DNA of 64,000 bases from Kribbella flavida DSM 17836 (GTDB lineage Bacteria > Actinomycetota > Actinomycetes > Propionibacteriales > Kribbellaceae), in the NCBI RefSeq assembly GCF_000024345.1, contig NC_013729.1, forward strand, positions 6,510,001-6,574,000, written 5' to 3'. Under the pieces are notes generated by a model that did not search any database, was not told where the DNA came from, and was given only the letters and a program-made list of their open reading frames with translations. Position numbers and translations under genes: made by a program. Shown here one piece after another: positions 1-24,848 of this stretch (the stretch's first letter is position 1; each line of letters starts with the position of its first letter).

Positions 1-772
1 GGAAGACGGAGTCGACCAGCCGGCCCTGGTTGACCAGCCGGCCCTGCTCGTCGGACTCCAGCCAGTGCACCGGCGCCACGTCGACGTCGAGGCCGAACGC
101 CTTGCCGCGGTCGATGAACGGGTCCAGCAGCTTGAGGATCGCCGGGATGTTGTCGCTGCCCGGGTAGTCCCCCTCGGTCCGCAGCACCAGCGTCAGCCGG
201 CTGCCCGGTTCCAGCTCGAGCAGGTCGACGATCGCCCGGTACCGCTGGTCGACCGGCGACGGCGGCGCGTCCACCAGTACCAGCTCGTCGAGCCCGTGGC
301 TGCGGAACATCTCCAGGAACCGGGTCGACACGCCCTCGGTGTCCCAGACGCAGCCGACCTCGCTGCCGATGTTGAACTCGACGAACTTCGGGATCCCGTC
401 GCTGATCAGCACGTCCGGCCGGCCGGACTGGATCAGGTGCTCGCCGAGCACCTCGTCGTCGTCCAGGTACTCGATCAGGCCGTCCGGAGTACCGAGCAGT
501 TTCCGCAGCTCCCCGGCGGTCGTTGCCCGGCGCAACGCGGTCTGCAGGACCAGCTCCAGCAGCCGGTCCATCACCCGGCCCAGCTCGTCGTACCGGCCGC
601 GGTCGATCAGCACCGGCCGCAGCGGCCGCCAGGACCGGTTGAAGGTGAGCACCCGGTCGAACACCCGCCGCCAGTCCTCGTGCCCGGCCGCGACCACCTT
701 CTCCCGGGTCGCCGCCGGCAGTTCCTGCCAGGCGTCGAAAGGGCGGCCACGCCAGTCGTAGCTCAGGTCCAT
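1..772 (-). CDS. ATP-grasp ligase-like protein, second copy (partial, runs off left edge)
   Basis: The first 257 residues are visible; the C-terminal half with the expected ATP-grasp core lies outside the window. The ATG at 772 overlaps the stop of the preceding gene by 10 bases, so translation is probably coupled. The visible part aligns along its length with its neighbour at 763..2121: both have a GH-x-x-W start region, a W-x-PLR motif, a TAGEL-R segment, a VE-N segment before a G-D-x-D/E-GV stretch, and a T-EGDYPG or TAGGGYPG segment before the next domain. It is therefore a tandem paralog of a putative carboxylate-amine or carboxylate-thiol ligase. The function is inferred from the paralog; the substrate is unknown. 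Confidence 0.75.
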   Translation of the reverse strand, partial: MDLSYDWRGRPFDAWQELPAATREKVVAAGHEDWRRVFDRVLTFNRSWRPLRPVLIDRGRYDELGRVMDRLLELVLQTALRRATTAGELRKLLGTPDGLIEYLDDDEVLGEHLIQSGRPDVLISDGIPKFVEFNIGSEVGCVWDTEGVSTRFLEMFRSHGLDELVLVDAPPSPVDQRYRAIVDLLELEPGSRLTLVLRTEGDYPGSDNIPAILKLLDPFIDRGKAFGLDVDVAPVHWLESDEQGRLVNQGRLVDSVF

Positions 773-2121
773 CGCTTCAGCTCCGTTTCGTCCACGAGCA
801 GCAGGCCGCCGGTCAGCGCACCCTGGGTCAGGTTCACCACGCCGCCCGCACCCGGCGGCGAGAAGCGGGTGAAAACACCCGCGGGGATCCGGTCGAACAG
901 GTAGGTCGACACGCAGTACGAGACCTCGGCCTCGACGACCTCGCCGGTCGCCGGTGCGAGGAACTGCATGGTCAGCGGGTCGGCCTCGATCAGCTCCTGG
1001 AGGATGTGCGGCCCGGTCGCCGCGTCCAGCGCGGCCAGCCAGTCCTCGGTGGAGGTGAGCGGTCCGATGAAGACGCCGTGCCCGCCGTAGTCGTCGGTCG
1101 GCTTGAGCACCAGCCGTTCGCGGTCGTCGATCGCCCGCTGCCGCAGCCGCGGGCCATAGACCCAGGTCCGCGGGATGTGCGCCCGGACGACGTCGGCGTC
1201 CTCGGCCGGCAGGTTGTCCAGGTCCTCCCAGAGCCAGGCGAAGATCGTCTTGTTGCTGAGCAGCCACACCGCGCTCGGCAGGTACATCCGGAACGTCCCG
1301 GCCGCGTGCGCCGCCCGGACCGCCGCCATCCCGGGACTGTCCGCGACGTACGGCGGAACGAACATCCGCCAGACGGCATCCAGCGTCCGGTCGCCGGCTG
1401 TGAGCCGCCCGTCGGCGTCCTGCTCGATCCACTCGACAGGGTGCACCACCAGGTCCACGCCGAGCTCGCGACCGCGGTCGGCGAACGGGCGCAGCCGGTT
1501 GATCAGGTAGTTCGGCCGGTCCGCGCCCGGGTAGCCGCCACCGGCGGTGAACAGCATCCCGGTCACCTTGCCCGGGCCGACGTCGGCCCGGATCGCGTCG
1601 AAGCGTGCGTCGATCGCCGACGGCGGAGCGGCCGCCCGCAGGTCGGCGAACATGCGCTCCTCGCGGTACACCTCCATCCACCGCTTGATCACGCCGTCCG
1701 CGTCCAGCACCCCGCCGAGCGCGCTCTCCACGTTGCACTCAACCATCCGCGGGACTCCGCCTTCCAGCAGCAGGTCCGAACGGATCGCGTTGATCAGCCG
1801 CCCGGTCAGCGGCTCGCTGTCGTCGAGCAGCTCGATCCGTCCCTCCGGCACCCCGAGCACCTCGCGCAGCTCGCCGGCCGTCCGGGCCCGCCGCCGGCAG
1901 CACTCCAGGACCAGCCGTGCCACCTGCTGGGTGACCCGGTTCATCTCGGCGTACGCCGCGTGCGAGGCGACCGGGGAGCGCAGCGGGATCCAGTTCTGGT
2001 TCTGCAGCGCCACGTCGTCGTACACCTGCTGCCAGTACTTGTGGCCGTAGGCAAGCAGCTTCTCGCGCACCGGTGCGGGCAGGACCGGCCAGAGCTCGGC
2101 CGCGGACGGTCGTTCGGTCAT
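763..2121 (-). CDS. Circularly permuted ATP-grasp ligase-like protein
   Basis: The protein has 452 residues. Its ATG at 2121 forms an ATGA overlap with the stop of the E1 beta gene. The C-terminal half contains LVLKPTDDYGGHGVFIGP, which resembles the nucleotide-binding segment of circularly permuted ATP-grasp enzymes, followed by a HILQELIEADP segment typical of the metal-binding strand. ATP-grasp enzymes activate a carboxylate as an acyl phosphate and couple it to an amine or thiol. As the downstream member of a biosynthetic operon with a paralog right after it, an amide-bond-forming tailoring role is the best guess. The substrate cannot be read from the sequence. The family call is moderately sure and the reaction is inference. 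Confidence 0.75.
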   Translation of the reverse strand: MTERPSAAELWPVLPAPVREKLLAYGHKYWQQVYDDVALQNQNWIPLRSPVASHAAYAEMNRVTQQVARLVLECCRRRARTAGELREVLGVPEGRIELLDDSEPLTGRLINAIRSDLLLEGGVPRMVECNVESALGGVLDADGVIKRWMEVYREERMFADLRAAAPPSAIDARFDAIRADVGPGKVTGMLFTAGGGYPGADRPNYLINRLRPFADRGRELGVDLVVHPVEWIEQDADGRLTAGDRTLDAVWRMFVPPYVADSPGMAAVRAAHAAGTFRMYLPSAVWLLSNKTIFAWLWEDLDNLPAEDADVVRAHIPRTWVYGPRLRQRAIDDRERLVLKPTDDYGGHGVFIGPLTSTEDWLAALDAATGPHILQELIEADPLTMQFLAPATGEVVEAEVSYCVSTYLFDRIPAGVFTRFSPPGAGGVVNLTQGALTGGLLLVDETELKRWT

Positions 2122-3095: not shown

Positions 3096-4045
3096 CAGCG
3101 CTGCACCTCCGGCGACGCGTAGAGGAACTCGAGAGCGGCAGCCGGGTCGGGATGGGCACTGCCCAGCGCGAACCCGGCCGCCGCGTCGAGCAGGGCCTCG
3201 ATCTCGGCATCCACGGCTGCCCGTAGCTCGGCAGCCAGCCGTGCGCCCTGGATCTCCACTGGGTCCCGCGACCGCCCAGTCGAGAGCTCTTCGGTCGATC
3301 GGTAGTTCAGCCGCGTCCGGTGCTCGAAGGTGTGGTGAGCGTCGAAGCGGTACGTCGTGCACTCCAGGAACGTCGGTCCCCGGCCGGACCGGGCCCGGGC
3401 GACGGCGGCGGACGTTGCTGCCAGCACCTTCTCCGGGTCCTGTCCGTCGACGGTGAAGGCCGGCATCCCGAAGGCCCGGGCCCGGCCGGTGATGCTGCCC
3501 GCGACCGCCGACTGCACCGGCATCGTGGTGGCGTAGCCGTTGTTCTCGCAGACGAACACCACCGGGACCTGCCACAGCGCGGCCAGGTTGAAGGCCTCCA
3601 GCAGCATGCCCTCGTTCATCGCGCCGTCGCCGAAGAAGCTGGCCGCCACCACGTCGCGGCCCTGCCGGCGGTACGCCCAGGCGGCGCCGGTCGCGATGGA
3701 GCCGGCCGCGCCGACGATCGCGTTGGCGCCGAGCACGCCCAGCCCGAAGTCGGCCGCGTGCATGGACCCGCCGCGGCCCTTGTTCAGCCCGCTCTCGCGG
3801 CCCATCAGCTCGGCCAGCATCCGGGCCGGGTCCGCCCCCTTGGCCAGCACGTGCCCGTGGCCGCGGTGGGTGCTGGTGATCACGTCGTCCGGGCGCAGCG
3901 CCGCGCACACCCCGGCCGCGATCGCCTCCTGGCCGACGTACGGGTGGATGCCGCCGACGATCTCACCGGACCGGACGAACCCGATCGCCCGCTCCTCGAA
4001 ACGCCGGATCAACCGCACGGTCCGGTAGAGCTGGTCGGCGGTCAC
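3095..4045 (-). CDS. 2-oxoacid dehydrogenase E1 component, alpha subunit (ThDP-dependent)
   Basis: The protein has 316 residues. The thiamine-diphosphate motif is complete: it starts GDGAMNEGMLLEAFN and ends with the paired Asn of VFVCENN. Further family marks are a THRGHGHVLAKG segment and a GRGGSMH segment. The GTG at 4045 starts 4 bases after the stop of the DUF3050 gene. It works with the beta subunit encoded next. Known family substrates include pyruvate, branched-chain 2-oxo acids and aryl-2-oxo acids; PglB/PglC of phenylglycine pathways are E1-type subunits of this kind. Next to a hydroxymandelate synthase, an arylglyoxylate or arylpyruvate substrate is plausible but unproven. Confidence 0.92.
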   Translation of the reverse strand: MTADQLYRTVRLIRRFEERAIGFVRSGEIVGGIHPYVGQEAIAAGVCAALRPDDVITSTHRGHGHVLAKGADPARMLAELMGRESGLNKGRGGSMHAADFGLGVLGANAIVGAAGSIATGAAWAYRRQGRDVVAASFFGDGAMNEGMLLEAFNLAALWQVPVVFVCENNGYATTMPVQSAVAGSITGRARAFGMPAFTVDGQDPEKVLAATSAAVARARSGRGPTFLECTTYRFDAHHTFEHRTRLNYRSTEELSTGRSRDPVEIQGARLAAELRAAVDAEIEALLDAAAGFALGSAHPDPAAALEFLYASPEVQR

Positions 4046-4859: not shown

Positions 4860-5768
4860 CTAGCGATCGGCCCAGAGCGTCGGGCAGAAGTCGGGGTCGG
4901 CGTAGTCGGGCCGCCCGTCGGGGGTCCGGCGGACCACCGCGTCGTGGTTGTACGCCGCGAGCGTGCCGTCGGACAGCGGGAACTCCCGGTAGGCGTTGCC
5001 ACCGTCCTGCAGGTGCAGCGAGATCGCGCGGCGCGGTCGGTCGCTGACGTTGGCGCCGGAGCCGTGGTACGTCCGGCAGTGGTGGAAGTTCAGGTGCCCG
5101 CGCGGGATCGTGATCGGCACCTTGACCACCTCGACGCCGTTGTGCCGCGCGTTCTCGGTGAGCATCTGCTCCAGCTGCGACCGGTCCCGCTCGGCGAAGT
5201 GCCGGACCACGGTGTCGTCGCTGCCGATCTCCTGCCAGCGGTGGCTGCCGTCGACCATCGTGATCGTGCCCATCTCCGGCGGGCAGTCGTGGAACGGGAT
5301 GAACGCGGTCAGCATCCGCTCCGACGACGAGGACGACCAGTAGTGCTTGTCGAAGTGCCAGGGCACGATGTTCGACGGTTCGCCGGAGATCGGCGGCTTG
5401 TAGATCAGCGTGGACTGGAAGATCCGGATCTCGTCCACCTGCGCCAGCCGGGCCGCGACCGCGCCGATCAGCGGCTTGCGCAGGATCTTCGCCAGGCCGT
5501 CGTGCTCGTAGTGCACGTAGTCGTTGTGCCGCTGCACGTCGCCCTTGGACGGGTCCCAGTAGGCCAGCTTCGGCGGCCGGACCGGCAACGTGCGGTCACG
5601 CTCGCCGGCGTAGTACCGCTCACTGGCGTTGACCAGCTCGTCGGTCTCGTCGTCGGTCAGCAGCTTCTTCGACAGGTACCAGCCGTGCTCGGCGTAGAAC
5701 GCCACGTCCTCGTCGGACGGCAGCAGCTCGATCTCTTCCTCGGACAGGCGGAACTCCAGAGCACTCAC
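4860..5768 (-). CDS. Phytanoyl-CoA dioxygenase (PhyH) family Fe(II)/2-oxoglutarate oxygenase
   Basis: The protein has 302 residues. The iron facial triad is visible as H-x-D in VPWHFDKHYW near residue 140 and a distal His in CRTYHGSGAN. An Arg that would hold 2-oxoglutarate follows in DRPRRAISLHL. A GSHRW segment between them is typical of the family. Such enzymes hydroxylate unactivated carbons or catalyse related oxidations using O2 and 2-oxoglutarate. The GTG at 5768 overlaps the preceding stop as GTGA. In this operon it is a tailoring oxygenase; the substrate is unknown. Confidence 0.85.
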   Translation of the reverse strand: MSALEFRLSEEEIELLPSDEDVAFYAEHGWYLSKKLLTDDETDELVNASERYYAGERDRTLPVRPPKLAYWDPSKGDVQRHNDYVHYEHDGLAKILRKPLIGAVAARLAQVDEIRIFQSTLIYKPPISGEPSNIVPWHFDKHYWSSSSSERMLTAFIPFHDCPPEMGTITMVDGSHRWQEIGSDDTVVRHFAERDRSQLEQMLTENARHNGVEVVKVPITIPRGHLNFHHCRTYHGSGANVSDRPRRAISLHLQDGGNAYREFPLSDGTLAAYNHDAVVRRTPDGRPDYADPDFCPTLWADR

Positions 5769-6841
5769 AGCTCGACCCCTTGCAGCTCGCGCTCCTTGGC
5801 CTCGTACAGGGCCTTGATGTTGCCGCTGCCGAACGTCATCGCGCCGCGCCGCTCGATGATCTCCAGGAACAGCGTCCGGCGGACGTGCATCGACTCGGTG
5901 AAGATCTGCAGCAGCTGGCCCCAGTGGTCCCGGTCGACCAGGATGCCGAGCTTCTGCAGGTCCTCGATCGGCGTCTCCACCTCGCCGACCCGCTCCGGCA
6001 GCGCCTGGTAGTACGCGGCCGGCGTACCGAGGAAGTTCACCCCGCGCCCGGCCAGCGTGCCGACCGCCTCGACGATGTCGCTGGTGCGCAGCGCGATGTG
6101 CTGCACGCCGGCGCCCGCGTGCCAGCTGAGGAAGTCGTCGATCTGCCCCGGGCGGCGGTTCGGGTCCGGCTCGATCAAGGTGAACGTCACGTGCTTGGAC
6201 GGGCTCTGCACGACCGTCGACTCCATGCCCTGACCGGCCACCTCGATGTACTCGTCGAAGATCGGCAGGAAGCCGAAGACGTTCTCGTAGAAGTCGACCG
6301 TCGGCTTCAGCTGTCCCGACGGCACGCAGATCGCCAGGTGGTCGATCTCGCTGAACAGCTTCTCGTCCGGCCCGCCGGCCGGCTCGGTGATCTGGAACGC
6401 GCCGGGCAGGAACTCCCGCCGCGGCCCGTGCCGCTCGACCAGCCGGTGGATCACGTCCCCGAAGCCGGCGACCTCGGCGACCACCACCGTGGTCTCCTGC
6501 TCGTCGCTGTACGTCGTGGGCTCGGCGACCGACACCGCGCCGCGGCCCATCAGCTCGGTGTAGGCGACGGAGGCGTTGTCCACCTCCAGCCCGACCACCG
6601 CGACGCCGTCGCCGTGCCGCTGCACGTACTCGGCGGCCGGGTGGTCCGCCGCCAGTCCGGACGTCAGCACGATCTGTACCGCGCTCTCCCGCAGCAGCAG
6701 CGACCGCTGGTCCGTCAGGCCCGTCTCCGGTCCCCCCTGACCGTGCACCTGCAAGCCGAAAGCGTGTCCCAGGTAGAACGCCGCCTGCCGTGCGTCGCCC
6801 ACGTACATCTCCACGTGGTCGATCCCGTAGATCTCCATCAC
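5765..6841 (-). CDS. 4-hydroxymandelate synthase-type dioxygenase (HPPD superfamily)
   Basis: The protein has 358 residues and two vicinal-oxygen-chelate halves. Predicted iron ligands are His168 (EIDHLAI), His248 (GVQHIAL) and Glu327 (FLEIIER). HPPD enzymes have Phe in a GNFKALFE helix; this protein has Ile342 in GNIKALYE, the change known to separate hydroxymandelate synthase from homogentisate-forming HPPD. Other segments also resemble HMS of glycopeptide clusters, for example HGDGVA and STVVQS. HMS turns 4-hydroxyphenylpyruvate into 4-hydroxymandelate. The GTG at 6841 is preferred to ATG 6838 because it gives the GTGA overlap seen throughout the operon. No hydroxymandelate oxidase or hydroxyphenylglycine aminotransferase is in view, so the fate of the product is open. 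Confidence 0.87.
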   Translation of the reverse strand: MMEIYGIDHVEMYVGDARQAAFYLGHAFGLQVHGQGGPETGLTDQRSLLLRESAVQIVLTSGLAADHPAAEYVQRHGDGVAVVGLEVDNASVAYTELMGRGAVSVAEPTTYSDEQETTVVVAEVAGFGDVIHRLVERHGPRREFLPGAFQITEPAGGPDEKLFSEIDHLAICVPSGQLKPTVDFYENVFGFLPIFDEYIEVAGQGMESTVVQSPSKHVTFTLIEPDPNRRPGQIDDFLSWHAGAGVQHIALRTSDIVEAVGTLAGRGVNFLGTPAAYYQALPERVGEVETPIEDLQKLGILVDRDHWGQLLQIFTESMHVRRTLFLEIIERRGAMTFGSGNIKALYEAKERELQGVEL

Positions 6842-8106
6842 CAGGCCATCCCCTCAGTTGTTGTCTCTGTGGCCGGCGTGCTCGCCGGTCCGAACAGCAG
6901 GCTCACGTTCTGGCCGCCGAAGCCGAAGGAGTTCGACAGCGCGTACTCCGGCCGCAGCTCGCGCGGCTCCTTCCGGACCAGGTCCAGCGGGCAGGCCGGG
7001 TCCGGGTCGTCGAGGTTGTACGTCGGCGGCAGTACTCCGCGGGACACCGCCAGCGCGCTCGCGGCCGCCTCCACCACCCCGGAGGTCCCGAGCATGTGAC
7101 CGGTCAGCGCCTTGGTGGAGCTGACCGCCGGGACGGCCTCGCCGAACGCCAGGCCGATCGCGACCGACTCCGCGACGTCACCGAGCTTCGTACTCGTCCC
7201 GTGCGCGTTCACGTAGCCGACCTGCGCCGGTACGACGCCCGCGTTCGCGAACGCCTTGCGCATGCAGTCGGCCGCACCGGTTCCGTCGGGCCGGGGCGCG
7301 GTCGGGTGGTGCGCGTCGGCGTTGACGCCGTAGCCCGCCACGTCGGCGTACCCGCGGGCCCTTCGGGCGGTCGCGTGCTCGGCGCTCTCCAGGACCAGCA
7401 GCGCCGCCCCTTCGGAGAGCACGAAGCCGTTCCGGCGCAGGTCGAACGGCCTGCTCGCGGCCGTCGGGTCGTCCCAGCCGCGGGCCAGCGCCCGGGCGTT
7501 GCCGAACGTCTCCGCGAAGGTCGGAAACAGCGGGGCCTCGCTGGCCCCGCACAGCACGACATCGGCTTCGCCCGCGCGGATCAGCCGGACGGCGTCGGCG
7601 ATCGCCTGGGCGCCGGAAGCGCACGCCGTACCGACCGAGGAGGTGTAGCCGCGCAGGCCGAACCGGATCGCGACCCGGGCGGCCGGCATGTTCGGCAGGA
7701 TCCCGGTCAGCAGGTACGGGCTGACCGCGGCCCGGCCCCGCGCGGCCCGCGCCAGCACCTGGCTCTCCAGCGTGGCCATGCCGCCGACGCCGCCGATGAT
7801 CACGCCGATCCGGTCCGGGTCGACGTTCTCGCCGACCACCAGGCCGGCGTCGGCCAGCGCGTCCTCGGCGGTCAGCTGGGCCAGGATCACGGTCCTGTCC
7901 ATCACCTTGCCGTCCGGGCCACTGGCGATCTTGCCCGGGTCGACCGGGGGCAAGAACCCAGCCAGCTCGACCGACTCCGCGACCGGGTGCCCCGCCGGCG
8001 GCCGGCCGATTCCCGACCGTCCGTGCAGCAACGCGTCGAACACGTCGTCGACTCCCCGGCCGACCGGCGTGAGCAGGCCCATCCCGGTGATGGTCACGGC
8101 CGTCAC
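6838..8106 (-). CDS. Beta-ketoacyl-ACP synthase, FabF type, with intact catalytic triad
   Basis: The protein has 422 residues, close to FabF length. The catalytic residues are all present: Cys162 in GTACASG, His302 in VNAHGTST and His337 in KALTGH. It should catalyse decarboxylative Claisen condensation between an acyl primer and malonyl-ACP. It is the only fully canonical ketosynthase in the cluster and probably works with the two ACPs encoded upstream. The GTG start gives a GTGA overlap with the ligase gene. A housekeeping fatty-acid role is unlikely, because the usual fabD/fabH neighbours are absent and the gene is embedded in a biosynthetic operon. Confidence 0.9.
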   Translation of the reverse strand: MTAVTITGMGLLTPVGRGVDDVFDALLHGRSGIGRPPAGHPVAESVELAGFLPPVDPGKIASGPDGKVMDRTVILAQLTAEDALADAGLVVGENVDPDRIGVIIGGVGGMATLESQVLARAARGRAAVSPYLLTGILPNMPAARVAIRFGLRGYTSSVGTACASGAQAIADAVRLIRAGEADVVLCGASEAPLFPTFAETFGNARALARGWDDPTAASRPFDLRRNGFVLSEGAALLVLESAEHATARRARGYADVAGYGVNADAHHPTAPRPDGTGAADCMRKAFANAGVVPAQVGYVNAHGTSTKLGDVAESVAIGLAFGEAVPAVSSTKALTGHMLGTSGVVEAAASALAVSRGVLPPTYNLDDPDPACPLDLVRKEPRELRPEYALSNSFGFGGQNVSLLFGPASTPATETTTEGMAW

Positions 8107-9731
8107 GACGACACCCCCGCGAGCCGGTCCTGCCGCAGCGCGACCTTGCGCACCTTGCCGGTCACCGTCACCGGTACGTCGTCCTGCCCGATCACGGCGA
8201 TCCGCCGGATCGTCGCGGCCACCTCGGCCCCGACCGCCTGGTGGATCCGGTCCGTGCGGTCCAGCGCCGGATCAGCGTCCGGGGCGAGCTCCAGCAGGAC
8301 GTCGGTCAGGTAGCTGCCGTTGTCCGGCACCACGATCACCGTGCAGTCGAGCACCTCCGGAAGCGCCGCCAGGATGCGCTCCTCCGACAACGAGGTGTAC
8401 AGCTGCGGCCCCTCGAAACCGGCCACCGCGTCCGGCACCCGGTCCAGGTGGAAGTAGTGCCCGCTCTCGTCGCGGTGCACCAGGTCACCGGTCAGGAACC
8501 ACCCGTTCAGCCGGAACCGGAACGTGTTCACCGAGTCGTTCCAGTAGCCCGGCGACACGCTCGGCGAGCGGAACCCGAGCAAGCCCGGCCGGCCCGGCGG
8601 CAGCTCGTTGCCGTCAGCATCGAGCACGGCGGCTTCGGCGAACTGGTACGGCTTGCCGATGCAGCGTCCGTAGTGCTCGGTGTCCGGCGTGTGCGTGATG
8701 TGGAAGCCGTTGTGGCCCATCTCGCTGGAGCCGAGGCCGTCGATGAAGTGCGAGCCCGGCACCGTGACCCGGCCGTCCCGGGTGACGGTCTCCCGGGAGC
8801 CGGCTGCGACCAGCTTGCGGATGTGCGGCTCGTGCGCGCAGTCGCCGGTGTTGAACCACAGCCGCACCGACTCCACGGCGTACCGGCTGAGGTCGGCGCG
8901 GGCCAGCCCGGCCCAGGTGACCGCGAAGCCGTAGACACCGTGCGGTTTCCACCGCTCGATCGCGGCCAGCACGTCCGACGCGTCCTGGCTGGACAGCAGC
9001 AGCATCTCGGCCCGGTTGCCGAGCACCTGGTTGACCATCAGGATCGTCGCGGTGTGCGGGATCGGCAGCGCGTTCAGGATCCTGTCGGTGCCCTGCGCCT
9101 GCGGCATCGTCAGCAGGTGCTTGAGCGCGGCGTACAGGGTGGTGTGGGTGTGCAGCACCGCCTTCGGTACGCCGGTCGTGCCACTGGTGTGGGTGATCAC
9201 GACGGGGTCGTCGCGGTGATGCCGGTAGTGCTCGGGCGCCCGTCCGGGATTGCCGGTGCCGAGCTCCTTCGGCTCACCGAGGATCGGTGCCCCGTGCAAC
9301 GAATCCGGCTGGTCCGACTGGCCGGCCAGCAGCTCGCGGTGCGCGGCGTCGGCGAGGATGGCGTCGACGCGCAGCCGGCGGATGTACTCCGACGCGATCG
9401 CCGGGGCCATCTTGCCGTTCAGCAGGGCGGGAATCGCGCCGACCCGGGTCAGGGCCAGGAAGCTCAGCACGATGTCGGCCGCGTCCGTGGCCCAGATCGC
9501 CACCACGTTCCGCCGGCCGATTCCCCGCGCGTGCAGCCACGCTGTCCGGGCCTGGACGCGCTCGTCCAGCTCGCCGAGGGTGAGCGGGTGCTCGGCGGCG
9601 AACTGGTCGACGGCCGTGTCGAAGGTCAGACCCGGCCCGTCCAGGTCGGCGCCGTGCGCGATCACCGTGGCCAGTACGTTGCCGGTCCCGACGGACGGGT
9701 CCGCGGCCAGCTGTGCCCTCAGGCTTCTCAC
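8103..9731 (-). CDS. AMP-forming acyl/aryl ligase (ANL superfamily), copy 1
   Basis: The protein has 542 residues if started at GTG 9731, which gives a GTGA overlap with the preceding stop; an in-frame upstream extension is ignored because it would run into that gene. ANL motifs are present: ITHTSGTTGVPKAVLHTH (phosphate loop), DGLGSSEMGHN, GWFLTGD, and a C-terminal VTGKVRKVALR with the catalytic Lys. It should adenylate a carboxylic acid and pass it to CoA or to a carrier protein. Being inside the ketosynthase operon, it may load the starter unit. The acid is not deducible by eye. Confidence 0.9.
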   Translation of the reverse strand: MRSLRAQLAADPSVGTGNVLATVIAHGADLDGPGLTFDTAVDQFAAEHPLTLGELDERVQARTAWLHARGIGRRNVVAIWATDAADIVLSFLALTRVGAIPALLNGKMAPAIASEYIRRLRVDAILADAAHRELLAGQSDQPDSLHGAPILGEPKELGTGNPGRAPEHYRHHRDDPVVITHTSGTTGVPKAVLHTHTTLYAALKHLLTMPQAQGTDRILNALPIPHTATILMVNQVLGNRAEMLLLSSQDASDVLAAIERWKPHGVYGFAVTWAGLARADLSRYAVESVRLWFNTGDCAHEPHIRKLVAAGSRETVTRDGRVTVPGSHFIDGLGSSEMGHNGFHITHTPDTEHYGRCIGKPYQFAEAAVLDADGNELPPGRPGLLGFRSPSVSPGYWNDSVNTFRFRLNGWFLTGDLVHRDESGHYFHLDRVPDAVAGFEGPQLYTSLSEERILAALPEVLDCTVIVVPDNGSYLTDVLLELAPDADPALDRTDRIHQAVGAEVAATIRRIAVIGQDDVPVTVTGKVRKVALRQDRLAGVSS

Positions 9732-10237
9732 AGTTGTTCTCCCCCACTCACCAACAGGGCGACTGCGGTGTCGCCGGTGGTTGCTTGTTCGACCAGGACG
9801 ACCAGGACCTGGTCGGCCTCGCCGTCGGCCAGCAGCAGCGCGGCCTCGTCCAGGCCGGCCCGGTGCGCGTCGATCGACGGGCTGACGCAGACCACCGGAC
9901 CGCGCAGGCCCCACCGCGCCGCGACGTGACCGGCGACGGCGTTGGGCACCGACTGGAAGAAGTAGAGCGGTCCGATCCGCTTGCTATCGGCAACCGCCTC
10001 GCGGACGTGGGTGGCGCTGGCCAGGTCACCGGTGCGGCTGACCAGGACCAGCGCGGTCCGCTCCATTGGCGCGGTCCGGGCGAAGCACCGATCGGCGACG
10101 ACCGCCACCAGCGGGCTGAACGAGGACCCGACGAAGCCGGGCAGCTGCGGCGGACCTGCCACCGCGTCGTCGCCCGGCTGCGGCCAGTGACTGGCAGTGA
10201 CCACGACCGGGTCCGGGAGTCCGGGCGTCGAGATCAT
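9728..10237 (-). CDS. Free-standing beta-ketoacyl synthase-like N-terminal domain, no catalytic Cys
   Basis: This 169-residue protein matches the short ketoacyl-synthase-like domain found in some polyene-type clusters (Ketoacyl-synt_2 type). It has FFQSVPNAVAGHVAARWGL and then a hydrophobic AD-x-VL strand equivalent to the one after the nucleophile elbow. Where an active ketosynthase has TAC-x-S-G, this protein reads VSPSID, so the nucleophile is missing. The C-terminal half with the two His residues is absent. Its start and stop both overlap neighbours by 4 bases (ATGA, GTGA), so it is not a decayed gene end. It may be a structural or chain-length partner; that is inference. Confidence 0.75.
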   Translation of the reverse strand: MISTPGLPDPVVVTASHWPQPGDDAVAGPPQLPGFVGSSFSPLVAVVADRCFARTAPMERTALVLVSRTGDLASATHVREAVADSKRIGPLYFFQSVPNAVAGHVAARWGLRGPVVCVSPSIDAHRAGLDEAALLLADGEADQVLVVLVEQATTGDTAVALLVSGGEQL

Positions 10238-11316
10238 CCCGCACGCACCAGCAGAGCCGTGTTGGCGCCGCCGAAGGCAGCGTTCAGCGTCAGCCCGTAC
10301 GCCGTACCCGCCGGCCGCGGGGCGTCGGCGATGACGTCCAGCGGGCAGTCCGGATCGGGCGTGGTGAAACCGGCGTTGACCGGAAGCTTGCCTTCCCGCA
10401 GAGCCTGCACGGTCAGCACCAGCTCCAGCAGGCCGGAGGCTTCCAGCGCGTGCCCGTGCACCGCCTTGGTGGAACTGACCGGCACGTCGCTCGCGAAGAC
10501 CCGGCGGATCGCAGCCGCTTCCGAGGCGTCGCTGAAGCCGGTGCCGGTCGCGTTGGCGTTGATGTAGCCGACCACCTCCGGCGGCAGGCCGGCCTTGTCC
10601 AGGGCCGACTCGATCGCGGTCGCGAGCCCGCGACCCGCGGGATCGGGGCGGCACGGATGGTACGCGTCGCCGGCCCGACCCCAGCCCGCGACCTCGGCGA
10701 TGCCTTCGCCGGCCTGCAGAACCACCGCGACCACCCCGTCGCCGAGCAGCAGGCCGCGCCGATCCCTGCTGAACGGGCGGACCACCCCGTCGTCCGCGAG
10801 GGCGCGACCGGCGTCGAACAACGCGAACTGGTCGGACTCCACCAAGTAGCCGGCGGCAACGATGATGCGGTCGGCGGCGCCTCGGCTGATCAGTGCGGTG
10901 GCGTCGGCGACCGCCGTACTGGCTGAGACGCAGGCGCTCGTGTAGATGCGGGCGGCACGGGTGGCCAAGGCGCGGGCCTCGCACCGGCCGTGGACCGCGA
11001 GCAGCAACGGTGTGGTCGCCCGCTGCCCCGGCGTCAGGCCGGCGTCCGCGCAGGCGGTGGTGACGGCGTCGAGCAGTTCCTGCTCGAGCGAACGAGCGCT
11101 GTTGGCCGTCGCAGCCTTCGTCACCCTGCGCTGCGCAGTGTCGAAGCGCCGGACCTCGGTGAAGGCGGCTGCGCCGGTCAGCGCCGCCGCCAGCTGAGCC
11201 TCGGGCCCCCGACCGAGCGCGCTCAGCACCGACATCCCGGTGACAGCGACCGGACGCCGTACGGCGACGCGTGGCCGGCCGACGGACTGTGCCTGGTGCG
11301 AGGTTAGGTCAGACAT
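10234..11316 (-). CDS. Ketosynthase-like protein with Cys-Asn-His site
   Basis: The protein has 360 residues, about 50 shorter than FabF because the region before the nucleophile elbow is reduced. Cys129 is kept (TSACVSAS) and His289 is kept in the KAVHGH motif, but the first catalytic His is replaced by Asn255 in the segment YINANATGTG, where YVNAHGTGT is usual. Loss of this His should impair malonyl decarboxylation, so it may be an acyl transfer partner, a chain-length-factor analogue, or an altered condensing enzyme. The ATG at 11316 overlaps the end of the ACP gene by 8 bases. Confidence 0.85.
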   Translation of the reverse strand: MSDLTSHQAQSVGRPRVAVRRPVAVTGMSVLSALGRGPEAQLAAALTGAAAFTEVRRFDTAQRRVTKAATANSARSLEQELLDAVTTACADAGLTPGQRATTPLLLAVHGRCEARALATRAARIYTSACVSASTAVADATALISRGAADRIIVAAGYLVESDQFALFDAGRALADDGVVRPFSRDRRGLLLGDGVVAVVLQAGEGIAEVAGWGRAGDAYHPCRPDPAGRGLATAIESALDKAGLPPEVVGYINANATGTGFSDASEAAAIRRVFASDVPVSSTKAVHGHALEASGLLELVLTVQALREGKLPVNAGFTTPDPDCPLDVIADAPRPAGTAYGLTLNAAFGGANTALLVRAG

Positions 11317-11557
11317 GGCTGGTCAGGACTTCCGCGAGCACGGCGACGGCGTCGTCGATGGTCCGGATCCGCTCCAGCTGGTCGTCGGTCAGCTCGATGC
11401 CGTACCGCTGCTCGACCTGGTGGACCAGCCAGGCCAGTTCCATCGAGTCGATCCGCTCGCTACCGGCCGGACGTTCGCCGAGTCCGGCCAGCCAGTCGGC
11501 GATCTCCGCTCTGCCCGGCGGGGGCAGAGCGGACGAAGGCGGGGAGAAGGAGGTCAT
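11309..11557 (-). CDS. Acyl carrier protein, copy 2
   Basis: The protein has 82 residues. The phosphopantetheine site is Ser38 in RIDSMELAWLV, followed by VEQRYGIELTDDQ, which fits helix II-III of carrier proteins. The N-terminus is Pro/Ser rich. The ATG at 11557 overlaps the stop of the first ACP as ATGA. It would carry an acyl or aryl thioester on the arm added by the adjacent transferase. Its sequence differs clearly from the first ACP, so the two probably receive different units. Confidence 0.88.
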   Translation of the reverse strand: MTSFSPPSSALPPPGRAEIADWLAGLGERPAGSERIDSMELAWLVHQVEQRYGIELTDDQLERIRTIDDAVAVLAEVLTSHV

Positions 11558-11811
11558 CAGACCTGCTGCGCGACCCGGCCGGCCACCTCGGCGGTGAACT
11601 CGCCGACGGTCATCAGGGCCAGCTGCTCGGACTCGTCGTCGGAGAACCGCACGCCGAACCGGTCCTCCACCCGCACCGACAGGTCGGCCAGCGCCAGCGA
11701 CTCCAGGTCCACCCCGGCCGGGCCGAGCGTGGTCTGGTCGTCGACGCCCTCGACGTCGTAGTTCATGTCCTGCAGCTGCGCGAGCACGAACGCGCGAACC
11801 TCGTCCCTCAT
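11557..11811 (-). CDS. Acyl carrier protein, copy 1 (first gene of main operon)
   Basis: The protein has 84 residues. The carrier site is Ser38 in GVDLESLALADLSVRVED, a DLES-type site resembling ACPs of aryl-polyene and type II systems. A GAAGG ribosome site precedes the ATG at 11811. The divergent phosphopantetheinyl transferase may begin only 17 bases away, leaving almost no space for a promoter. It heads a chain of overlapping genes that reaches the left edge of the window. Confidence 0.9.
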   Translation of the reverse strand: MRDEVRAFVLAQLQDMNYDVEGVDDQTTLGPAGVDLESLALADLSVRVEDRFGVRFSDDESEQLALMTVGEFTAEVAGRVAQQV

Positions 11812-11828: not shown

Positions 11829-12554
11829 GTGGATGAACGTCCGGGGCCCGGTCCGGAACCCGTGCACGTCTGGGTGACACCAACCGGCGACGAGCCGCGA
11901 TCCGCCGCCCACCGCCTGCTCGAACAACTCGGCAGTTCGCTGCTGGGCACTCCGGCTGCCCTTCGTCACGCAACCACCGGCCGCCCGACCCTGAACGGGC
12001 TGTCCGTGAGCCTCAGCCACGCCCGGACCTCCGGCGACGAGCAAAGCGCCGCAGGCGCCGGAGCTGTCGGCACCGAGCGACGCGCCGCGAGCGGCGTGCA
12101 CGGGCTGGTTGCGGTCGCCGCCTCGGTGGCCGGGCCGGTGGGAGTGGATCTGGAGGTGCGGCGTGCGTTCGCGGTGACCGGGATGGCGCGGCGGTGGTTC
12201 GATCCCGCCGAGGCGGCGCTGGTCGAAGCCGCCGACGACCCGGTCGAAACCTTCCTGCTGCTCTGGACCGCCAAGGAGGCGGTCGGCAAAGCCCTCGGCC
12301 GCGGCCTGCGCTCCAACGGCCTCGGCCGCCGGATGCCGGCCCTGACCACCGGAAAGGGCACCCTGCACGCCCACGCGGTTCCGTCCGAGGACCAGCTTGT
12401 GGTGGTTCACGTGCCTCTGCGGTGCGATGCGGTCCTGGCGCTCGCCTGCCCGCGCGGTGTGCGAGAGATCGTGCTGACCGAACATCACGGGGCCGCCTTG
12501 CGCAGCACCGTCAGGTCGCGCACAAGCTTCCCGGTCGTTGTCCTCGGCAACTGA
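11829..12554 (+). CDS. 4'-phosphopantetheinyl transferase, Sfp type
   Basis: The protein has up to 241 residues. The metal- and CoA-binding motifs are present: VGVDLEVRR near residue 95 and WTAKEAVGKALGRGL near 155, with a WF between them. It should activate the two cluster ACPs by transferring phosphopantetheine from CoA to Ser38. The first in-frame GTG (11829) has no clear ribosome site; GTG at 11862 or 11874 would also leave the VHVWVTPTG segment intact or nearly so, so the start is uncertain. The 3' end overlaps the convergent ligase gene by 70 bases. Confidence 0.88.
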   Translation: MDERPGPGPEPVHVWVTPTGDEPRSAAHRLLEQLGSSLLGTPAALRHATTGRPTLNGLSVSLSHARTSGDEQSAAGAGAVGTERRAASGVHGLVAVAASVAGPVGVDLEVRRAFAVTGMARRWFDPAEAALVEAADDPVETFLLLWTAKEAVGKALGRGLRSNGLGRRMPALTTGKGTLHAHAVPSEDQLVVVHVPLRCDAVLALACPRGVREIVLTEHHGAALRSTVRSRTSFPVVVLGN

Positions 12555-15404: not shown

Positions 15405-16298
15405 TCAGGCGGGGGCGCCGAGCTTGCCCAGCGCGACCGCGACCCGGCCGTCGGCCTCGGCCAGTGCCTCCCGGGCGGCGCTGACCGGGCTGCCGGTCAG
15501 CAGGTGCACCAGAGCCGGCTTGAGCTCGCCGTCGGAGTCGGCCAGCGCGGCGGCGCAGGCGTCCGCGTCGGCGCCGGTGGCCTCGGCCAGGATCCGCAGC
15601 ATCCGGCCGCGCAGCTTGTTGTTGGTGGCAACCATGTCGACCATCAGGTTCGACCAGGTCCGGCCGAGCTTGATCATCAGCGTGGTGGAGAACGCGTTCA
15701 GGATCATCTTCTGCGCGGTGCCGGCCTTCAGCCGGGTGGACCCCGCGATGACCTCCGGCCCGGTGTCCGCGGCGATCAGCACGTCGGCCAGGGGCGCGAG
15801 CGGGGCGTCCGGGTTCGAGGTGACCAGCGCCGTGGTGGCGCCGACCGACCGGGCCTGCCGCAACGCGCCCGCCACGTACGGCGTACTGCCGGAGGCGGCC
15901 AGACCGATCACCACGTCCAGCCCGGTGACGGCGGCCGCGTCGGCCGCGCCGCCTTCCTCGGAGTCCTCCACGTTCTCGACCGCGCGCAGCAGCGCGGGCA
16001 TGCCGCCGGCGTGGTGCGCGACCACCAGGTCGTCCGGCGCGTGGAACGTCGGCAGCAGCTCGGCGGCGTCCAGCACCGCCAGCCGGCCGGACGTGCCGGC
16101 CCCGAAGTAGTGGACCCGGCCCCCGTTCCGGACGGCGTCCACGGCGGCATCCACGATCCGGGCCAGCTCCGGCACGACGGCACCGACCGCGCCCGCGACC
16201 CGGGCGTCCTCCGCGTTGACCATCCGGAGGATCTCGAGGGTGCCCACCGCATCGATCGCGAGCGTCCGGGGGTTGCGCTGCTCCGTGGGTGTGATCAC
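15405..16298 (-). CDS. murQ: N-acetylmuramic acid 6-phosphate etherase
   Basis: The protein has 297 residues, typical for MurQ, with one SIS domain. HYFGAGTSGRLAVLDAAE near residue 64 and the GLAASGSTPYV segment form the sugar-phosphate site; KAGTAQKMILNAFST is another MurQ signature. It cleaves the lactyl ether of MurNAc-6-phosphate to give GlcNAc-6-phosphate and D-lactate in cell-wall recycling. The start is GTG 16298, 31 bases after the regulator gene. It is the last gene of the salvage operon. A CCGCC-TCA-GGCGG hairpin straddles its stop codon. Confidence 0.96.
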   Translation of the reverse strand: MITPTEQRNPRTLAIDAVGTLEILRMVNAEDARVAGAVGAVVPELARIVDAAVDAVRNGGRVHYFGAGTSGRLAVLDAAELLPTFHAPDDLVVAHHAGGMPALLRAVENVEDSEEGGAADAAAVTGLDVVIGLAASGSTPYVAGALRQARSVGATTALVTSNPDAPLAPLADVLIAADTGPEVIAGSTRLKAGTAQKMILNAFSTTLMIKLGRTWSNLMVDMVATNNKLRGRMLRILAEATGADADACAAALADSDGELKPALVHLLTGSPVSAAREALAEADGRVAVALGKLGAPA

Positions 16299-16329
16299 GC
16301 TACGATGTTAGTTTTCTACTGAACATTTT

Positions 16330-17232
16330 TCAATTCTGTTGATCGTTGACAGAACTCTTCATCCGATGCCCGCGGACCGCGCTGGCGGTTTCCTCGAGTG
16401 CCTTGCGGGCGTCCGGCAGCACCGACTGGGCCACTCCGATGAACAGGCAGTCGATCACCATCAGCTGCGCGATCCGGCTGGACATCGCGCCGGACCGGTA
16501 CGTCGTCTCGCGGGCGGCGGTGGTCAGCACCAGGTCCGCGGCGTGCGCGAGCGGCGAGCGCGGGAAGTTCGTCACCGCGACCGTGGTGGCACCGTGCCGG
16601 GCCGCCTCCTCCAGCGCCTCGATCACCTCGACGGTGGTGCCGGTGTGCGAGATCCCGATCGCGACGTCGCCGTCGCCGAGCAGGGCCGCGCTGGTCAGCG
16701 CCACGTGCACGTCGGACCACGCGAACGCGACCCGGCGGATCCGGTGCAGCTTCTGCTGCAGGTCGAGCGCCACGAAGGCGCTCGCCCCGGAGCCGTACAG
16801 GTCGACGCGCGGCGCCTTGGCGACCGCGTCGACGACCTGGGCCAGCGTGTCCACGTCGAGCTGCTGGGCGGTCTCGCGGACCGCCCGCTCGTCGGCGAAG
16901 GCGACTTTGCCGACCACGTCGGCCAGCGAGTCGTCCGGCTCGATGTCACCCCCGACCTCGGGTCGGACGTTCTCCTGCGCCGACTGGGCCGCCAGTTGCA
17001 GGCGGAGCTGCGGATAGCCCGGGACGCCGACCTGCTTGCAGAACCGGATGACCGTGGTCTCCGAGGTGGACGCCACCTCGGCCAGTTCGGAGATCGTCAT
17101 CGCCGCCACTCCGCCCGGGTCCGCGAGGACCGCGTTCGCCACCCGCTGCTCGGCCGGGGCCAGCGCGGGCATCACCGCGCGGACCCGGACCAGCAGCGGC
17201 CCCGTGGGTTCTGGAGAGGTCATCGAAGTCAT
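16330..17232 (-). CDS. RpiR/MurR family transcriptional regulator
   Basis: The protein has 300 residues when started at ATG 17232; a 19-residue upstream extension is rejected as it adds no domain residues. It has an N-terminal RpiR helix-turn-helix (TISELAEVASTSETTVIRFC, residues about 45-65) and a C-terminal SIS domain with YGSGASAFVALDLQQKL and SHTGTTVEVIEAL. It probably senses MurNAc-6-phosphate or GlcNAc-6-phosphate and controls the operon it sits in. A palindrome of the RpiR type lies before the first operon gene (24787-24799). Confidence 0.92.
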   Translation of the reverse strand: MTSMTSPEPTGPLLVRVRAVMPALAPAEQRVANAVLADPGGVAAMTISELAEVASTSETTVIRFCKQVGVPGYPQLRLQLAAQSAQENVRPEVGGDIEPDDSLADVVGKVAFADERAVRETAQQLDVDTLAQVVDAVAKAPRVDLYGSGASAFVALDLQQKLHRIRRVAFAWSDVHVALTSAALLGDGDVAIGISHTGTTVEVIEALEEAARHGATTVAVTNFPRSPLAHAADLVLTTAARETTYRSGAMSSRIAQLMVIDCLFIGVAQSVLPDARKALEETASAVRGHRMKSSVNDQQN

Positions 17233-17267
17233 GACGCCACGGTACGGCGAATGAGCACCGAGCGGGG

Positions 17268-18995
17268 TCACCGACGCGAAAGTCTCCAACCTGACGCGGT
17301 GAAGGCTTCCGGACTGCGTTCGCCGTTGAAGATCACCTGGTGGCCGTCGGTGATCTTCACCCCGTCCACGAACACCCCCCGGCCCTGGTAGAGCGCGTCG
17401 GAGGCGTACCGCCAGCGGATCGTCTGGTCACCGCCGGCCAGGTCGGCCGACGCCTGGTGCCAGTGCCGGTCGCCGGACCCGCTGATCGTGCCGTCGGTGT
17501 CGACCACCGATCCCCGGTCCACCAGCGAGAACGGGACCTTCGTCCAGGTGACCCCGTCGGTCGAGGACTCCAGGTACAGCAGGTCGGTGTCCTCGGTGTC
17601 GACGAACAGGTCGAAGGCCAGCTTCGCCCCGCCCGCGGGAGCCGCGACCGGCAGCGCGAGCGTCGACGTACTGGCGTCGGTGGTGCCCGAGAACCAGGCG
17701 TCCTTGCCGTGCCGCGGCGCAACGCCGAGCGACAGCGCCAGCCCCTGCGCAACCGCCCGCCGGGCCGGGTTGTTGCTGCCCCAGTTACGGCTCGGGTGCA
17801 CCCGGTTGGTGAGCAGGATCGCGAACGAGCGGGAGTCGAAGTCGATCACCAGCGACGTGCCGGTGTACCCGGTGTGCCCGGCCGTGCGCGGCCCGGACAG
17901 CCCGGCCATGTACCAGCGCTGGTTCAGCTCGAAGCCGAGCCCGTGGTCGTTGCCCGGGAACGCCTGGGTGAAGTTGGTGATCATCGCGGTGACGGAGCTT
18001 TCCTTGAGGATCCGGGCGTGCCGGTAGCTGCCGCCGTTCAGGAAGGCCTGCGCCAGCACGGCCAGGTCGTCCGCGGTGCTGAACACCCCGGCGTGCCCGG
18101 CGACACCGTCGAGCGACCAGGCGTTCTCGTCGTGCACCGAACCCCAGACCATGCCGCGGGCCGGCGCGCTCTGGAACTCCGTGGCCGCGATCCGCGCCTT
18201 CTTCCTCGGGTCCGGGTTGTAGCCGGTGTCGCGCATCTGCAGCGGCTTGGTGATGCCGTCGGCCACCAACTTGTCCAGCGTCTTGCCGCTGACCCGGTGG
18301 GCGACCTCGCCGAGCGCGATCAGGTTGAGGTCGGAGTACAGGTACCGCGTACCGGCCGGGCTGGTCGGCTTCGCGGTCAGCGCCATCCGCAGCCGCAAGG
18401 CCGGAGTCGGCTGGCCGCTCCACAACGGCAGCCAGGACGGCAGGCCGGTGGTGTGGGTGAGCGCCTGCCGGACGGTGATCGCCGCCTTGCCGTTCTCGGC
18501 GAACTCCGGCACGTACGTCGCGATCGGGGCGTCGAGGTCGACCCGGCCCTTCTCGACCTGCTGTATCACCACGATCGAGGTGAACAGCTTCGACACCGAC
18601 GCCAGGTCGAAGATGGTGTCGGTACGCATCGGGATCTGCTGGTCGGCCGGCAGCTCGGTGCCGGCGCCGTCGGCGTACTTCACCGCCAGCCCGGTCGCCT
18701 CCCGGGTGACCACCTTGCCGTCGTGACCGAGCAGCGTGACGGCTCCGGCGTACAGCGGCTTGGCGGTGCCGTTGGGCCTGGTCCAGCCCTCGACCTGGGC
18801 GAGCGCGGCGTCGATCGGCGCGGGGTCGAGGCCTGCCTTGGCCGGGGTCGTGTCGCGCAGCAGGGTGTTCTTCGAGGCGTAGCCCTCGAAGGGGCGGTCG
18901 AAGCGTCCGGCGGTTCGGTTGCTGTCAGCAACTGCAGGGGTAGCCATGGTGAGGATCAGGGTAGCGACCGCCGCGGTCGCTGCCGCTCGCCTCAT
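17268..18995 (-). CDS. Secreted serine beta-lactamase-fold hydrolase with C-terminal beta-sandwich domain
   Basis: The protein has 575 residues and a signal peptide (residues 1-22, cleavage after PAVA). The penicillin-binding/beta-lactamase class C domain has the SVSKLFT nucleophile motif, YSDLN as the Tyr motif and HTGYTG in place of KTG. About 150 C-terminal residues form a separate, probably beta-rich, module (from about 435, with ESSTDGVTWTKVP). The ATG overlaps the namZ stop as ATGA. Relatives next to NagZ/NamZ in Bacillus (YbbE) suggest a cell-wall peptidase or esterase rather than drug resistance. Confidence 0.88.
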   Translation of the reverse strand: MRRAAATAAVATLILTMATPAVADSNRTAGRFDRPFEGYASKNTLLRDTTPAKAGLDPAPIDAALAQVEGWTRPNGTAKPLYAGAVTLLGHDGKVVTREATGLAVKYADGAGTELPADQQIPMRTDTIFDLASVSKLFTSIVVIQQVEKGRVDLDAPIATYVPEFAENGKAAITVRQALTHTTGLPSWLPLWSGQPTPALRLRMALTAKPTSPAGTRYLYSDLNLIALGEVAHRVSGKTLDKLVADGITKPLQMRDTGYNPDPRKKARIAATEFQSAPARGMVWGSVHDENAWSLDGVAGHAGVFSTADDLAVLAQAFLNGGSYRHARILKESSVTAMITNFTQAFPGNDHGLGFELNQRWYMAGLSGPRTAGHTGYTGTSLVIDFDSRSFAILLTNRVHPSRNWGSNNPARRAVAQGLALSLGVAPRHGKDAWFSGTTDASTSTLALPVAAPAGGAKLAFDLFVDTEDTDLLYLESSTDGVTWTKVPFSLVDRGSVVDTDGTISGSGDRHWHQASADLAGGDQTIRWRYASDALYQGRGVFVDGVKITDGHQVIFNGERSPEAFTASGWRLSRR

Positions 18996-24772: not shown

Positions 24773-24786
24773 GACCGACCCCTCAG

Positions 24787-24799
24787 GTAATTGAATTAC
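24787..24799. promoter_or_regulatory. RpiR-type operator palindrome before the nagZ operon
   Basis: The sequence GTAATTGAATTAC is a perfect 6-1-6 inverted repeat, and the base after it extends the match to the TGTAATTnAATTACA pattern known for the RpiR-family regulator HexR. It lies between the predicted promoter and the ribosome site of the first gene, an ideal roadblock position for the RpiR/MurR regulator encoded at 16330..17232. Confidence 0.7.
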
Positions 24800-24819
24800 A
24801 ACGTTCCCCCTGGACGCGA

Positions 24820-24848
24820 AAGTTACCCACGCCACAGATCAGGGTCAA
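24820..24848 (-). promoter_or_regulatory. Sigma-70-type promoter of the peptidoglycan-salvage operon
   Basis: On the minus strand, TTGACC (24843-24848) and TAACTT (24820-24825) are separated by exactly 17 bases. Transcription should start near 24813, giving a leader of about 40 bases that includes the palindrome at 24787. Confidence 0.65.

Follow-up and report, generated by a model that had tools for sequence, protein, structure and literature searches.

A ketosynthase that keeps its nucleophilic cysteine but has lost one of its two catalytic histidines is encoded in the 64,000-nucleotide stretch of Kribbella flavida DSM 17836 analysed here (contig NC_013729.1, positions 6,510,001 to 6,574,000; hereafter the window). 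This protein, KS2, carries Cys-Asn-His (C-N-H) where a canonical ketosynthase (KS) carries Cys-His-His (C-H-H), and it is probably the ketosynthase subunit of an ava/cma-type heterodimer, derived from highly reducing type II polyketide synthases (PKSs), with a shortened chain length factor (CLF). In our favoured reading, which we consider about evenly poised between right and wrong, Cys129 of KS2 takes an acyl group from one acyl carrier protein (ACP1) and passes it onward, and a canonical ketosynthase (KS1) and a second carrier protein (ACP2) carry out the decarboxylative condensation. The wider proposal, which we advance more tentatively, is that a type II KS-CLF pair had its decarboxylation dyad dismantled in two ways (C-N-H and Cys-His-Gln, C-H-Q) as its pathway changed, and became a dedicated acyl-transfer (priming) enzyme in tandem with KS1 on the second ACP. 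Such an enzyme would be a free-standing "type II KS0", with a product made from hydroxymandelate- or hydroxyphenylglycine-type units in Kribbella, Micromonospora and their relatives.

The KS2 gene and its active site lie at the following positions:
10234..11316, minus strand: KS2 ketosynthase, 360 amino acids (aa), ATG start, KAS II fold, Cys129-Asn255-His289 plus His287
10932-10930, minus strand: codon TGC of KS2 Cys129 (nucleophile), motif SACVSAS
10554-10552, minus strand: codon AAC of KS2 Asn255 (position of the HGTGT histidine), motif YINANATGTG
10450..10458, minus strand: codons of KS2 His287-Gly288-His289 (HGH; HGQ in the sister clade), His289 being CAC at 10452-10450 in the motif VHGHALEAS

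Frame 1 of the plus strand over 10234-11316 holds internal stops, and the coding strand of KS2 is the minus strand. The original prediction that Cys129 and His289 are kept, with Asn255 in place of the first catalytic histidine, can be read directly in the protein, and its estimate of a chain about 50 residues short before the nucleophile agrees with the 52 residues fewer that we counted from the VTG motif to the cysteine (103 in KS2 vs 155 in the canonical KS1 of the window). KS2 is a stand-alone protein, not a domain of a modular type I PKS, and both halves of the ketoacyl synthase fold are assigned to it by Pfam. Its AlphaFold model, built from a 45-sequence input, reached a mean pLDDT of 94.7. 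The top structural neighbours were FabF proteins (2rjt_A: Z 51.1, root-mean-square deviation (rmsd) 1.8, 342 residues aligned), the ishigamide ketosynthase 6kxd_A gave Z 49.0 (rmsd 1.8, 338 aligned), and no KAS III entry appeared among the 50 structural neighbours listed. In a crosslinked FabF structure, both histidines touch the substrate carbonyl (PMC7138838, in excerpt).

A contig scan of genomes returned 79 loci (numbered with the prefix L), of which 65 held full-family relatives and 14, with remote canonical KSs only, were dropped. Family counts refer to the window protein and these 65 relatives (n = 66); motifs were tabulated from a hidden Markov model alignment. Position 129 is Cys in 66/66 members. 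Asn occupies position 255 in 45/66 (44 AAC codons, one AAT) and His in 21/66, and position 289 is His in 44/66, Gln in 21/66 and unreadable in L063, where the contig ends. The same 21 members carry both His255 and Gln289, so that exactly one of the two catalytic histidines is lost in 65/65 scorable members, by the two routes C-N-H and C-H-Q. Since Asn is found in 45/66 members, Asn255 is genuine, and a sequencing error at its codon is ruled out. Nor did we find close homologs with His at this position and normal condensation: the close homologs have Asn, and the distant members with His255 have Gln289. Position 287 is His in 65/66, L063 again being unreadable; because this residue also varies among ordinary C-H-H ketosynthases (Thr, Val, Ile, Leu, Tyr, Phe, Ala, and His in L070), we treat His287 as a candidate for a substitute general base.

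Ratios of nonsynonymous to synonymous substitution rates (dN/dS) of 0.09-0.33 in eight pairs indicate that the KS2 family is under purifying selection. Across 45 aligned ketosynthases (the window protein, 34 of the 65 relatives and 10 remote canonical KSs), Cys129, Asp263, Glu266, Lys284 and Phe348-Gly349-Gly350 are invariant. Sampling 395 further genomes of the same phylum added one close relative only (G204, 70% over residues 109-359); none of the remaining 209 matching genomes of that sample exceeded 150 bits, a score that ordinary KSs also reach. A search for the AmcG family in 394 genomes of the class matched 26, two of them above the cut-off, and led to L116, L118, L122 and L127. In the Actinophytocola loci L027, L037 and L041, Asn255 is kept, the next motif reads NANASGA with a one-residue gap, and the HGTGT threonines are gone too.

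The lineage of KS2 was traced in a FastTree tree of 94 sequences, in which the window protein is represented by its closest relative, L006 (86% identical), rather than by a row of its own. The outermost branches of the KS2 lineage are C-H-H ketosynthases of two Streptomyces plasmids, L146 (unannotated) and L145 (in a cluster of the 3-amino-4-hydroxybenzoic acid (3,4-AHBA) type). On the next branch inward are C-H-H ketosynthases that already have His287 (L144, L118 and L116), with pabB nearby; the node uniting them with the remainder of the lineage has a support of 0.78. L122 (C-N-H) follows, and then come two clades, one of 21 C-H-Q sequences (support 0.94) and one of 44 C-N-H sequences (support 1.0). 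The C-N-H clade contains L006 and has among its members Kribbella, Micromonospora, Actinophytocola, a metagenome-assembled genome (MAG) of Pseudonocardiales and L009 (recorded as Streptomyces). The C-N-H state may have had two origins, or a single origin with reversion to His in the C-H-Q clade. KS2 is 40% identical to L145 and 53% to L144, and the tree supports an ancestry shared with the ketosynthases of AHBA and para-aminobenzoic acid (PABA) clusters. The AmcF-like ketosynthases L114 and L115 are C-H-H and branch with KS1, apart from KS2.

The original prediction had taken the FabF-like KS1 as the partner of KS2. The likelier partner is encoded just downstream:
9728..10237, minus strand: shortened chain length factor (cyclisation-factor-like), 169 aa, ATGA overlap with the KS2 stop

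This protein resembles the N-terminal region of KS and CLF proteins (Pfam Ketoacyl-synt_2, 51.3 bits), has no Cys in the nucleophile column of the alignment, and aligns with the CLFs of L144 (224 aa) and L145 (227 aa) at 48% and 38% identity, respectively. Its model (pLDDT 90.8) matched the ishigamide CLF 6kxd_B (Z 15.3, rmsd 4.0, 166 aligned) and ApeC 6qsp_B (Z 14.9, rmsd 3.2, 156 aligned). The CLF gene accompanies KS2 wherever the contig extends far enough.

Upstream of KS2 lie the two carrier proteins and a ligase, and KS1 is encoded farther downstream:
11309..11557, minus strand: ACP1, starter-carrying (A3-type) position; Pfam PP-binding 24.4 bits; W..H signature
11557..11811, minus strand: ACP2, extender-carrying (A2-type) position; Pfam PP-binding 21.7 bits
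12485..14014, minus strand: AMPlig2, AMP-binding ligase at the AvaA1/CmaA1 (aryl-ACP ligase) position; Pfam AMP-binding 95 bits; start codon uncertain
6838..8106, minus strand: KS1, canonical Cys-His-His FabF-like ketosynthase; Cys162, NAHGTST, TGH

For the ava and cma systems, the starter is expected on A3-type ACPs and the malonyl unit on A2-type ACPs, and Trp38 and His41 of CmaA3 are conserved in A3 only (PMC10777205, in excerpt). Among 72 matches to ACP1 (some from overlapping loci), Ser38 was present in all 72, Trp43 (Ser+5) in 71 and His46 (Ser+8) in 69. ACP2 has the Ser in 65/65 matches and is without the Trp/His signature; the second ACP of L145 also carries that signature.

A KS1 orthologue exists for 44/44 C-N-H loci; 41 have it near KS2, and the other three have it outside the locus in the same genome: L026 (505 bits), L063 (750 bits) and L068 (616 bits). 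Of the 21 C-H-Q loci, 16 have it nearby, and two more have it at another place in the genome: L050 (540 bits, about 16 kb away) and L067 (555 bits, one internal stop codon). KS1 orthologues were counted at 505-750 bits, 282-293 bits being the level of second-best matches in other genomes. The genomes of L172/L050 and L173/L026 have a separate operon in which ACP2 directly precedes KS1, together with E1 alpha and E1 beta genes; the other operon of the same two genomes keeps AMPlig2, ACP1, KS2, CLF, a 4-hydroxyphenylpyruvate dioxygenase (HPPD)-type dioxygenase and PhyH together. The idea that KS2 works without an extender ACP in L026 and L050 was dropped, as KS1 and ACP2 are adjacent elsewhere in both genomes, and all that we retain from this adjacency is that the two move as a unit, in a second operon. 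ACP1 seems to go with KS2 and ACP2 with KS1.

The loss of the histidine goes along with a further gene of the operon:
5765..6841, minus strand: HPPD / 4-hydroxymandelate synthase-family dioxygenase; 362 bits to TIGR01263 (cut-off 277), a model that does not separate the two activities

An HPPD-type dioxygenase gene lies near 61/65 His-less loci. For the other four (L041, L063, L067 and L068), where the contig ends, a genome search turned up an orthologue outside the locus (425-675 bits), adjoining KS1 in L063, L067 and L068; all four of these genomes also encode one or more additional HPPDs with lower scores (229-291 bits). The dioxygenase is likewise present in L156 (C-N-H). No such gene was found near any of five C-H-H loci (L144, L145, L146, L157 and L158; 20-31 kb around each, not genome-wide), four of which carry PABA- or 3,4-AHBA-type genes. 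Because the dioxygenase tracks the His-less loci and is absent near the C-H-H loci, we conclude from gene content that the loss of the histidine accompanies a pathway change. An HPPD-family protein, a flavin mononucleotide (FMN) oxidase and an aminotransferase together lead to hydroxyphenylglycine. Two hydrolases, an FMN-dependent oxidase and an aminotransferase are encoded about 2-13 kb beyond the window start, and the oxidase, aminotransferase and hydrolase set recurs in the flanks of 11/65 loci (L026, C-N-H, and ten C-H-Q loci; at many others the flank is too short to reach it) and near L122 (L156). By analogy, these enzymes and the dioxygenase would make hydroxymandelate or hydroxyphenylglycine here.

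We favour a division of labour between KS2-CLF with ACP1 and KS1 with ACP2 because two genomes divide the genes between two operons and because the C-N-H form is always accompanied by KS1. AMPlig2 would adenylate an acid and load it onto ACP1, as colinearity with AvaA1/AvaA3 and the W..H signature suggest. Cys129, which presumably lies close to where KS2 and the CLF meet, would accept the acyl group, which is consistent with the retained Cys and the retained oxyanion-hole FGG. With Asn replacing the HGTGT His, decarboxylation of malonyl-ACP would be weak or absent, and the acyl group would be transacylated to a downstream acceptor. Any decarboxylative condensation would then be performed by the canonical KS1 with ACP2, in keeping with the separate ACP2-KS1-E1 operon of two genomes. 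Of what had originally been predicted, the kept nucleophile with a lost HGTGT His has proved real, conserved and, with Cys in 66/66, distinct from a CLF; the inferred acyl-transfer or priming role that was attached to it fits best.

Several observations weigh against this division of labour. A KS1 orthologue was not found in the C-H-Q genomes L042, L043 and L046 (best matches 282-293 bits; L043 and L046 are MAGs, and the completeness of the three genomes is not given), so KS2 of the C-H-Q clade may itself condense. ACP2 adjoins ACP1 in 62/65 loci, being missing there in L026, L050 and L052 (contig end), and short-chain dehydrogenases, possible ketoreductases, lie near some C-H-Q relatives (L044; L172, 47 bits). 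As His289 is kept and His287 added, some capacity for decarboxylation may remain in KS2. KS0 behaviour has been described for modular type I enzymes, and our reading supposes that it carries over to a type II heterodimer. The dioxygenase association, for its part, reflects no more than a few evolutionary events, and the 65 loci do not count as independent cases.

Part of this evidence would suit a KS2-CLF that still decarboxylates and condenses, using one His (His289 in the C-N-H clade, His255 in the C-H-Q clade) with Asn or Gln, possibly helped by His287, and joining an unusual acyl-ACP1 to malonyl-ACP2. The chemistry has a parallel in the Cys-His-Asn enzymes of the KAS III/chalcone synthase type, which decarboxylate with one His and one Asn (His first, Asn second). 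The Ser is kept in both ACPs, and the Lys, Asp, Glu and FGG are kept in KS2; the adjacency of the two ACPs and the three C-H-Q genomes in which no KS1 orthologue was found point the same way, and for the A4 enzymes at the equivalent position, extension of aryl-ACP with malonyl-ACP has been proposed (PMC10777205, in excerpt). However, the clade of the window has lost the very histidine whose loss defines KS0, all 44 C-N-H loci have a KS1 orthologue, and ACP2 can relocate together with KS1. On balance we judge retained condensation to be possible but rather doubtful.

We think it unlikely that KS2-CLF instead couples the acyl group to a non-decarboxylating nucleophile (e.g. an amine or a carbanion made by E1 alpha/beta) or closes a ring. 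AmcF-AmcG likewise has a truncated CLF-like partner and is proposed to close a ring (PMC10698177, in excerpt), and E1 alpha/beta genes are close to most relatives of KS2. Yet the AmcF-like ketosynthases are C-H-H and stand elsewhere in the tree, with KS1, and the vicinity of L026, L027, L037, L041 and L050 yielded no E1 genes (in L026 and L050 they are with KS1 elsewhere in the genome). A catalytically dead KS2 that serves only as a scaffold of the complex would agree with the missing histidine and the shortened N-terminal region; given the Cys in 66/66 members, the purifying selection, the invariant active-site residues and a CLF gene alongside wherever the contig is long enough, we regard it as very improbable.

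Around the genes in the favoured acyl-transfer scheme lie the following further features:
11829..12554, plus strand: 4'-phosphopantetheinyl transferase; Pfam ACPS 49.6 bits; start codon uncertain
8103..9731, minus strand: AMPlig1, AvaA6 (ATP-dependent diazotase)-like ligase; GTGA overlap with the CLF stop
4860..5768, minus strand: PhyH-type dioxygenase; Pfam PhyH 83.1 bits
4050..4847, minus strand: DUF3050, haem-oxygenase-like redox protein; Pfam DUF3050 323.6 bits
2118..4045, minus strand: thiamine-diphosphate 2-oxoacid dehydrogenase E1 alpha (3095-4045) and E1 beta (about 2118-3095)
763..2121, minus strand: 452-aa protein at the operon end; without a Pfam match; paralogue just outside the window

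AMPlig1 scored 483 bits against NF058622, below the cut-off of 975; the next best protein of the genome scored 38 bits. No nitrous-acid genes of the CreE/CreD type were recognised among the Pfam matches of the cluster, no genome-wide search for them having been made. The 452-aa protein at the operon end might, at a guess, be ATP-grasp-like, and a relative of it closes the operon in 37/65 loci. The same protein and L155:14014-15501 are related, 450-495 aa long and without any Pfam match. Its paralogue lies in the region about 2-13 kb beyond the window start, along with an O-methyltransferase, transporters and another AMP-binding protein.

At L014:25-7236, genes for acetyl-CoA carboxylase, for a cyclase and for an aromatic type II KS stand ahead of the operon, and then a CLF-like frame with the motif SESAGGLD. 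This frame occurs in 28 Micromonospora loci, and none was seen in the window; the arrangement may be either a hybrid or a neighbouring aromatic PKS. Elsewhere in the window, positions 15405-24835 of the minus strand encode two SIS-domain proteins (one an RpiR-type regulator), a NamZ exo-muramidase, two glycoside hydrolase family 3 enzymes and a beta-lactamase-fold protein with an InhA-like MAM domain, a fusion that seems unusual. This run looks like a muropeptide recycling cluster.

Among known systems, KS2 and its neighbours come closest in layout to the ava and cma clusters for avenalumic and p-coumaric acid, whose gene order is A1-A2-A3-A4-A5-A6 (table in PMC10777205, in excerpt). The order ligase-ACP2-ACP1-KS2-CLF-AvaA6-like is the same, with KS2 and the CLF at the places of AvaA4/CmaA4 and AvaA5/CmaA5; ACP1 has the starter-ACP Trp/His pair with the identical spacing of three, and the C-H-H relative L145 sits in a cluster with 3,4-AHBA-type genes. 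In contrast to these likenesses, KS2 has lost one catalytic His and gained His287 (a comparison that leaves aside the Ava/Cma triads themselves), the CLF is cut to 169 aa (224-227 aa in L144/L145), and the Pfam-annotated genes of the window operon include dioxygenase and E1 genes instead of 3,4-AHBA or ketoreductase genes. As it does not have the Cys-His-His triad, KS2 is not a standard ava-type ketosynthase.

The AmcF-AmcG pair of cispentacin biosynthesis also combines a KS with a truncated CLF-like partner without motifs, and an adenylating ligase loads its starter (PMC10698177, in excerpt). However, KS2 scored 139.6 bits against the NCBIfam AmcF cut-off of 325, and the 169-aa CLF and a 140-aa stretch scored 37.2 and 37.7 bits against the AmcG cut-off of 80. 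The window CLF matched L144 at 102 bits and L145 at 72 bits vs 22 bits for the AmcG-like L114, with L115 absent among the matches listed. Orthology with AmcF-AmcG, suggested by NCBIfam, is ruled out by the cut-offs, the tree and this pattern of CLF matches. Because the AmcF-like ketosynthases are C-H-H and branch with KS1, the truncation of the CLF here and that of AmcG look convergent.

From the KAS III and chalcone synthase enzymes KS2 differs in having the reverse order, Asn255 and then His289, and from a CLF (KS beta) in that the whole family keeps the nucleophile. ApeO-ApeC (6qsp) and the ishigamide KS-CLF (6kxd) resemble the pair in structure, and short CLFs exist there (the ApeC chain has 238 residues), but the window CLF is shorter still, and the KS2 triad differs from the canonical triad that we take the 6kxd and 6qsp ketosynthases to carry. 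Ketosynthases of modular PKSs without the HGTGT His are read as non-elongating KS0 (PMC4661987 and PMC5764310, both in excerpt). KS2 is like them in keeping the Cys with the HGTGT His replaced, from which transacylation is expected, and unlike them in that it is a separate type II protein, that its partner is CLF-like and that its sister clade lost the other His.

The literature searched, whose coverage mostly excludes subscription papers, yielded no description of the KS2 variant or its cluster, which is common to several genera of rare actinomycetes and to which we could assign no known compound as product. By sequence, KS2 is a variant of a known ketosynthase type, without a described precedent that we found. 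With its relatives it forms a natural series within one operon framework, from C-H-H through C-H-H with His287 to C-N-H and C-H-Q. In this series, the separate roles of the KAS II-type catalytic histidines can be compared among natural relatives, and what turns an elongating ketosynthase into a transferase can be addressed.

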